Shown here: piece after piece, positions 62,530-64,000 of the stretch | How the letters are laid out: each line of letters starts with the position of its first letter | Position numbering within the stretch: position 1 is the stretch's first letter | Assembly: GCA_028287135.1 (NCBI GenBank) | Contig: JAQBQE010000002.1 | Location: forward strand, 186,001 to 250,000 | Length of the DNA: 64,000 bases | Reading direction: 5' to 3' | Source: Myxococcales bacterium | GTDB lineage: Bacteria; Myxococcota_A; Polyangia; Haliangiales; Haliangiaceae | Notes under the pieces: generated by a model | Told to the model about the DNA's origin: nothing | Seen by the model: only the letters and a program-made list of their open reading frames with translations | Databases searched by the model: none | Position numbers and translations under genes: made by a program

Positions 62530-63303
62530 TCAGGGCGAACGCGCGCAGCGAAAGCCGAGGTATGCCTCGGGCACCATCGGGTCCTCGGACGCTCGACCCG
62601 CCGTCCGTACGTTGCGTGGCGTGTTTCCGTAGTAGCCCCCTCGCACGGAGCGCGACGTTCCGTTCGGAGGGCCCTGCGGGTCGTTTGTCGGGCTCGTCGT
62701 GTAGTACGTCGGGTCGAACCAGTCCTGGGTCCACTCCCAGACATTGCCGGCCATGTCGAAGGCGCCATAGGGACTACGGCCCGAAGGACGCGAGCCGACC
62801 GGCAGCGGCTCGGCGCCAGCGCAGAGGTCGAAGATCGCGAGATCGCACGTCGGCGCCGCCTCGCCCCAGGGATACGTGCGGCCATCGTCGCCCCGTGCGG
62901 CCTTCTCCCACTCCGCCTCGGTGGGTAGGCGCTTCCCGTCGAACGCGCAGTACGCATCGGCCTGTGACCACGTCACCTGTCGCACGGGATGGTCAGGTGT
63001 CAGATCCGGATCGAAGTCGGTTGCGGGATGGGTGCAGGCCCCGCTCGTCACACAGCGCGCGTAGGCGAGCTGGGTCACTTCGGTCTGGTCGATGGAGAAC
63101 GCGGACAGGGTCACGACGTGGACCGGATCTTCGATAGTCCTGCAGTCCGCCTCGTTGGGGACACGGCAACCCATCGTGAACGGACCCGCGGCGACGAGGA
63201 CCTCGGTCGCGACCGCCGCGGCATCGCTGGCAGCGCCGAATCCGATCCGCCCGCATCCCGCGAGCATGACGAGCCCGAGCCTCCCGACGCGACCTACCCT
63301 CAT
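62530..63303 (-). CDS. Lipoprotein with formylglycine-generating-enzyme (SUMF1/FGE-like) fold
   Basis: A 257-residue protein with lipoprotein signal MRVGRVGRLGLVMLAGC and an FGE-type domain: FSIDQTEVTQLAYARCV, HPVRQVTWSQADAYCAFDGK, RLPTEAEWEKAARG, AFDMAGNVWEWTQDWFDP, SVRGGYYGN and YLGFRCARSP. The catalytic paired cysteines of true FGE are not evident, so a binding or structural role is more likely than sulfatase activation. Starts at ATG 63301-63303; ATGs at 63312 and 63315 are possible. Confidence 0.9.
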   Translation of the reverse strand: MRVGRVGRLGLVMLAGCGRIGFGAASDAAAVATEVLVAAGPFTMGCRVPNEADCRTIEDPVHVVTLSAFSIDQTEVTQLAYARCVTSGACTHPATDFDPDLTPDHPVRQVTWSQADAYCAFDGKRLPTEAEWEKAARGDDGRTYPWGEAAPTCDLAIFDLCAGAEPLPVGSRPSGRSPYGAFDMAGNVWEWTQDWFDPTYYTTSPTNDPQGPPNGTSRSVRGGYYGNTPRNVRTAGRASEDPMVPEAYLGFRCARSP

Positions 63304-63374
63304 GCCGATCATCATCGCACGTGCAGCTTTCGACGTGGCCTGCGTCCATGTCGACGTGTCGCGGGTAGCGCCGC

Positions 63375-63962
63375 TCAGAGCTTGTAGCCGCGCTTGAGCA
63401 GCTGCCGCGCATCGGCCGCGAACGCCTCGGGGCCAGGCACCTCGAACTCGAAGGTATCGGCGAGCCGGTCGATGACGTTGAAGGCGAAGCACACCGCGAG
63501 CGCATCCTCGATCTGCTCGCGGGAGACGCCGGCATCGAGCAGCGCGCGCATTGTCGCGGGCGTGACGCTCGCGTGATCCGTGGTCACCGTGCGCAGCATG
63601 CGCAGGGTCAGGCGCAGCTTCTCGTCGATCGGCGCGGTGTCGAGATCCGCGAGCACCGCGGCGACCTTGTCAGCTTCTCCGTAGGCCTGCACCGCGACCG
63701 CGGTGTGAGCACACGTTCAAAAGTCGCATTCGTTGACCTTCGACACGAACGCCGCCATCAGCTCGCGGTCGCCCACCGACCACGCGGACGGTCCACGCAG
63801 ACAGTCCTGGAACACGCGGGACATCGGCTCCCCGAAGAACTCCGGCCGATACAGCAGGGTCTTGATCACATCGGGGGGCGGCTTGCGCGAGACCACACCG
63901 ATGAACCGCAGGAGCGCCTTGTGGCGGAGGCGATGACCGTCGTCGAGGACCGCGAGCCTCAC
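63375..63962 (-). CDS. Carboxymuconolactone decarboxylase/AhpD-fold protein, probable selenoprotein (Sec at in-frame TGA)
   Basis: The frame runs from GTG 63960-63962 to the stop at 63375-63377 as 195 residues if the single TGA at 63717-63719 is decoded. Before it the sequence is WSVGDRELMAAFVSKVNECDF; after it, TCAHTAVAVQAYGEADKVAA. In AhpD/CMD proteins this segment is C-x-x-C-x-x-x-H, and the TGA sits exactly where the second, peroxidatic Cys should be (C79, U82, H86). The frame is unbroken on both sides, with family-like sequence throughout. A hairpin with a GGUC loop follows (63690-63705). Likely a peroxidase or thiol-disulphide enzyme. Its GTG overlaps the stop of an upstream gene. A nonsense mutation is the alternative. 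Confidence 0.8.
63690..63705 (-). promoter_or_regulatory. Candidate bacterial SECIS hairpin
   Basis: Starting 11 bases after the TGA on the minus strand, CACCGC-GGTC-GCGGTG forms a perfect 6-bp stem with a GGUC loop. The loop lies 17-20 bases downstream of the TGA, in the window for SelB-recognised SECIS elements, and places G in the first two loop positions. A 2x2 mismatch and a short lower stem (GCU/GGC) can extend it. The GGUC loop resembles that of E. coli fdhF. Confidence 0.6.
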
Positions 63963-64000
63963 GACCGGCCCTCGAGCGCCGCGGTCAGCGCCGCGTGTGC
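63959..64000 (-). CDS. 3' end of a gene running off the right edge
   Basis: On the minus strand the frame reads AHAALTAALEGRS and ends in a TGA at 63959-63961 that overlaps the GTG of the probable selenoprotein gene (GTGA). Only 13 residues are visible, so the product cannot be named. The overlap indicates that the two genes are co-transcribed. Confidence 0.5.
   Translation of the reverse strand, partial: AHAALTAALEGRS

Follow-up and report, generated by a model that had tools for sequence, protein, structure and literature searches.

A selenocysteine-containing AhpD-like protein from a Myxococcales genome bin, with a conserved hairpin in its gene and a probable CMD-fold partner

A gene near the end of a 64,000-nucleotide stretch of DNA (the window; C3:186001-250000 of a 4.84-Mb genome bin that is 59.5% complete) is confirmed, by comparison of sequences, as a real selenoprotein gene, because its in-frame TGA codon is shared with relatives, a hairpin is conserved behind that codon and homologues carry Cys at the position. 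We are very nearly certain of the overall explanation, which is a genuine AhpD-like/CMD selenoprotein with hairpin-directed selenocysteine (Sec) decoding at UGA82, a redox site and a probable partner complex. In this mechanism tRNA-Sec and SelB would insert Sec at codon 82 under the direction of a hairpin whose GGUC loop lies 17 nt downstream. A preliminary description of the DNA had proposed the selenoprotein, and the Sec machinery, the TGA/Cys pairing and the conserved hairpin now support it. The features are collected in Table 1.

Table 1. Positions of the selenoprotein gene and its associated features in the window
Feature	Position	Strand	Remarks
AhpD-like (CMD-fold) selenoprotein gene	63375..63962	minus	195 residues with Sec82; GTG start (63962-63960), true TGA stop (63377-63375)
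Sec codon (in-frame TGA)	63717..63719	minus	Position of the second Cys in CxxCxxxH
Predicted bacterial SECIS hairpin, CACCGC-GGUC-GCGGUG	63690..63705	minus	Distance from UGA to loop, 17 nt
Partner gene, 3' end	63959..64000	minus	103 aa; whole gene L012:3960-4271 minus, past the window end

The frame consists of 81 codons from the GTG, the TGA, 113 sense codons and the stop. The preliminary description had located the single in-frame TGA at the same coordinates, leaving the strand unstated, and had likewise recognized the motif C79-D-F-U82-T-C-A-H86 with the TGA at the second Cys. It had also called the sequence family-like on both sides of the TGA. The Pfam CMD match (PF02627; cut-off 23, score 41.4 bits) covers residues 48-109 and so spans the codon, and this match, like the TGA kept by relatives, exceeds what chance would give.

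The position of the TGA is maintained among relatives. Fifteen relatives were obtained by scanning public genomes; in three of them (a Kofleriaceae MAG, a Deltaproteobacteria MAG and a MAG labelled Acidobacteria) this codon is likewise TGA, and in the rest it encodes Cys. Exactly one TGA is present in all 24 matches within the order, two of which (L054 and L055) belong to another group, the classical TIGR01926 proteins, and in 15 of the 16 matches within the phylum, the exception (L056) having TGT at the Sec position. Among 301 Chloroflexota genomes most of the divergent matches have one TGA too. L077, which has one TGA and one TAG, was excluded. Within the subfamily of the window protein 42 genes, drawn from two phyla and from many independent assemblies, carry the TGA at the Sec82 codon in intact frames; Cys forms read TGC or TGT there, a Sec/Cys pairing seen across 42 Sec and 12 Cys genes. 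The preliminary description had named unrelated codons or other stops in relatives as evidence that would speak against Sec; in the aligned homologues the position is TGA or Cys. The first Cys of the motif, C79, is invariant in 35 Sec rows and is lost in some Cys forms (L026, L028 and L071), and most relatives have the motif C-E-F-U-T. One locus (L065) carries on its plus strand two AhpD-like genes close together, each with an in-frame TGA (at about 845 and at about 1744), the second of the window subfamily and the first of a different AhpD-like group.

These comparisons bear on the possibility of a pseudogene or a sequencing error, in which a Cys codon (TGC or TGT) was mutated or misread to TGA. 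The Cys forms do show TGC or TGT, one base off TGA, at this very codon, and the assembly is fragmented; yet the same TGA is kept in the 42 genes of two phyla, in independent assemblies, with intact frames and with a conserved hairpin, and we regard such an accident as extremely improbable.

No other single observation speaks as strongly for the selenoprotein as the conserved hairpin. All six stem pairs are formed in 41 of the 42 Sec genes and five pairs in the other one; the loop reads GGUC in 41 of them and AGUU in the remaining gene. Cys forms, twelve in all, lack the hairpin and have 1-5 pairs of the stem. In an alignment of 29 sequences 100% of the stem cells are paired, against a shuffled mean of 94.2%, and seven cells show changes on both sides, a number that none of 500 shuffles equalled. 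Two stem pairs covary (G-C/A-U, and G-U/C-G/A-U), a count that is by itself not unusual (52 of 500 shuffles). Across 35 Sec genes codons 87-91 show a synonymous identity of 1.00, where 0.40-0.48 is expected, and these are the five largest excesses in the gene. This lack of synonymous variation, together with the conservation of the hairpin, points to selection on the RNA at these codons, beyond that on the protein alone. The evidence for the hairpin is one of conservation and not of energy, since the z-scores of minimum-energy folds, computed on fixed stretches, were only modest (-0.5 to -2.3) and the single-sequence minimum of some relatives is a different fold. Bacterial SECIS elements are described with a small apical loop containing a G (PMC1088965), and the hairpin found here agrees with this description, its loop being small with G as the first base. 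L054 and L055, from genomes of the same family, have a different downstream hairpin, again with a GGUC loop, which perhaps mirrors a preference of SelB. Neither the hairpin nor the absence of selB from the bin, described below, had been foreseen.

The same bin contains a tRNA-Sec (73.6 bits, called by ARAGORN as well), selA (525 bits) and selD (311 bits; L015:77-922, minus strand, contig C66). The selD gene has an in-frame TGA, in the context GGG-U-AAK as read by eye, and for this reason SelD of the source genome is probably a selenoprotein too. A search by family did not find selB in this 59.5%-complete bin; the best candidate, of 82 bits in a 1044-aa frame, and the others, which score lower, fall far short of the cut-off; they probably represent translation GTPases of other kinds and were not counted as selB. 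The sel genes looked for at the suggestion of the preliminary description were thus found with the exception of selB. Given the incompleteness of the bin this absence is weak as counter-evidence, and since 27 of 35 genomes in the order carry selB, the gene most likely sits in the missing part. In the phylum, tRNA-Sec was found in 31 of the 34 genomes with Sec forms, and the remaining three (G003, G028 and G353) have selB or selA. In the phylum sample selA is present in 14 of the 15 Sec-form genomes, compared with 208 of 331 for all genomes; the exception (G328) has a tRNA-Sec and no selA at the threshold used. All ten Chloroflexota genomes checked have selA. Two tRNA-Sec matches per genome were seen in G010 (C163, 7 kb apart), in G108 (on two contigs, C7 and C68) and also in G132, which could be assembly duplication.

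Another option is that the locus holds two separate genes, with a programmed stop at the TGA and re-initiation at the GTG at 63692. Translation table 11 indeed yields an ORF on either side of the TGA, with 81 and 105 aa, as the preliminary description had anticipated for standard gene callers. But the division would fall within the active site, between C79 and H86, the Cys forms are single uninterrupted proteins, and the Sec machinery and a SECIS-like hairpin are present, so that we give hardly any credence to two genes. A reading of the UGA as another amino acid, such as Trp, through a changed code or a suppressor, is possible in principle and found no support, and it is just as improbable, as the window gene and several relatives terminate in TGA, relatives carry Cys and not Trp at the position, and a Sec-specific tRNA and selA are present.

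We return to the selenoprotein and its possible function. Among NCBIfam models TIGR01926 (peroxidase-related enzyme) fits best, with 70.6 bits for the window protein and 70.8-71.9 for relatives; as its cut-off of 81.8 is missed, we treat this family as a near neighbour and do not file the window protein as a member. NF041238 (AhpD_rel_CFYUT; 43.2 bits, cut-off 175) and TIGR04030 (40.1 bits, cut-off 233) do not reach their cut-offs either. The AlphaFold2 model, built on a 15-row alignment, has a pLDDT of 88.8 and a pTM of 0.85, and the closest structures in Foldseek are the AhpD-like peroxidase-related proteins 2pfx, 6k40, 3c1l, 2prr and 2oyo (TM 0.70-0.75). Mycobacterium tuberculosis AhpD has five proton-relay residues, E118, C130, C133, H137 and His132 (PMC3141380). 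A profile alignment to its structure 1gu9 (E 0.0098; offset 51; starts 65-124 on 116-172) places E67, C79, U82 and H86 on E118, C130, C133 and H137, and the fifth residue, His132, corresponds to Phe81. Sec82, in place of Cys133, would thus form a thiol/selenol redox site with Cys79, Glu67 and His86, in which Sec82 may be the attacking selenolate and C79 the resolving thiol. Judged from the active site, the most likely reaction is the reduction of hydroperoxides or of a related electrophile, and the family makes a peroxide the likely substrate.

The gene upstream of the selenoprotein is its constant neighbour. Its stop and the start of the selenoprotein gene share 4 nt (GTGA), and a profile search found this partner at all 53 loci examined (41 Sec and 12 Cys), where it mostly ends within a few bases of the enzyme gene start; the partner that the preliminary description had guessed to lie just beyond the window is therefore real. 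At one locus (L074; G613:C185:2080-2655, minus strand) the partner follows a Cys-form AhpD-like domain as an in-frame C-terminal fusion. The 103-aa ORF has no Pfam match above the cut-off, and against NCBIfam there is a weak hint to TIGR01926 positions 107-160 (E 0.003). The model of a partner from another locus (L021) has a pLDDT of 95, and Foldseek matches it to AhpD-like structures with probability 1.00 and TM up to 0.71, at an E of 0.06 at best. The program hhalign places the partner profile on enzyme-profile residues 60-185 and leaves a gap at the CxxC stretch (probability 72%, E 4e-6). We read the partner, from these models and profiles, as a CMD-fold protein without the catalytic CxxC stretch. 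The gene overlap, the constancy of the pair and the fusion suggest that it probably forms a complex with the enzyme. ORF listings of six Cys-form loci gave no obvious common neighbours beyond the gene pair. Downstream of the selenoprotein in the window (62530-63341, minus strand) lies a gene for a FGE-sulfatase-domain (formylglycine-generating-enzyme-like) protein, probably a lipoprotein (LAGC motif).

A further question is which of the two residues came first. In a tree of 57 proteins, the root of which rests on four outgroup rows, Cys forms lie at two places within the Sec forms. One is L074; the other is a clade of 11 (100/93), and the window protein is among the Sec rows closest to it (99/96). 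Given these outgroups, Sec looks to be the older state in the subfamily and to have changed to Cys at least twice. The Cys forms outside the phylum were retrieved with the window protein as seed, so their placement in the tree may be biased and others may have been missed. From a first tree it had seemed that Cys forms occur in organisms lacking Sec machinery; this idea was dropped, as L056, of the same class, and several other Cys-form genomes have selA. A broader proposal, to which we give about even chances, is that of an undescribed, mainly Sec-using AhpD-like subfamily that forms a two-protein unit with a CMD-fold partner lacking CxxC, occurs at least in Myxococcota and Chloroflexota, was ancestrally Sec and turned to Cys two or more times, with one Cys lineage reaching Actinomycetota, Bacteroidota and Acidobacteriota.

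Such genes are split by standard-code gene callers and lose their active site in the process, and the window selenoprotein is probably unannotated. The nearly invariant hairpin provides a simple signature for finding genes of the subfamily. The constant partner and its natural fusion make this a candidate heteromeric selenoenzyme that is open to testing, and the Cys clade nested in Sec forms is a natural experiment on giving up selenocysteine.

A search for selenoproteins in Myxococcota found no paper in the body of literature that it covered. The kind of protein itself is known, as the preliminary description had said, since AhpD-like selenoproteins carrying CxxU were described for the Sargasso Sea in 2005 (PMC1088965) and for GOS (PMC2398784), and a 2026 review catalogues AhpD-like selenoproteins under TIGR01926, PF02627, NF041238 and NF041047 (PMC13188914). 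What is apparently new, as far as we are aware, is the CMD-like partner of ~100 aa at all 53 genes and an ancestral Sec with at least two changes to Cys. By their descriptions in the available portions of these papers, the marine-metagenome proteins AhpD-like 1 (COG2128), AhpD-like 2 and CMD-like (PF02627) share with the window protein the CMD fold, the CxxU and a SECIS-like hairpin whose small loop contains a G (PMC1088965; PMC2398784; PMC13188914); those descriptions mention no partner of ~100 aa such as the window subfamily has, and this subfamily also falls short of the TIGR01926 cut-off. The TIGR01926 enzymes (2pfx, 2oyo, 6k40, 3c1l and 2prr) have a similar length and the same catalytic E-x(11)-C-x-x-C-x-x-x-H, with about 22-26% identity to the window protein, and the classical TIGR01926 selenoproteins L054 (135.8 bits) and L055 form a separate group in the tree. 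NF041238 and TIGR04029/TIGR04030 (Avi_7170/Avi_7169) are of the CMD/AhpD type as well; NF041238 has a Sec form, by its name with C-F-Y-U-T compared with C-E-F-U-T in most window relatives, and the window subfamily differs from these families by a partner encoded in its own gene of ~100 aa or, in L074, fused at the C-terminus. In M. tuberculosis AhpD (1gu9/1knc) the four relay residues align although the overall similarity is weak, and where this enzyme has Cys133 and His132 the window protein has Sec and Phe81.
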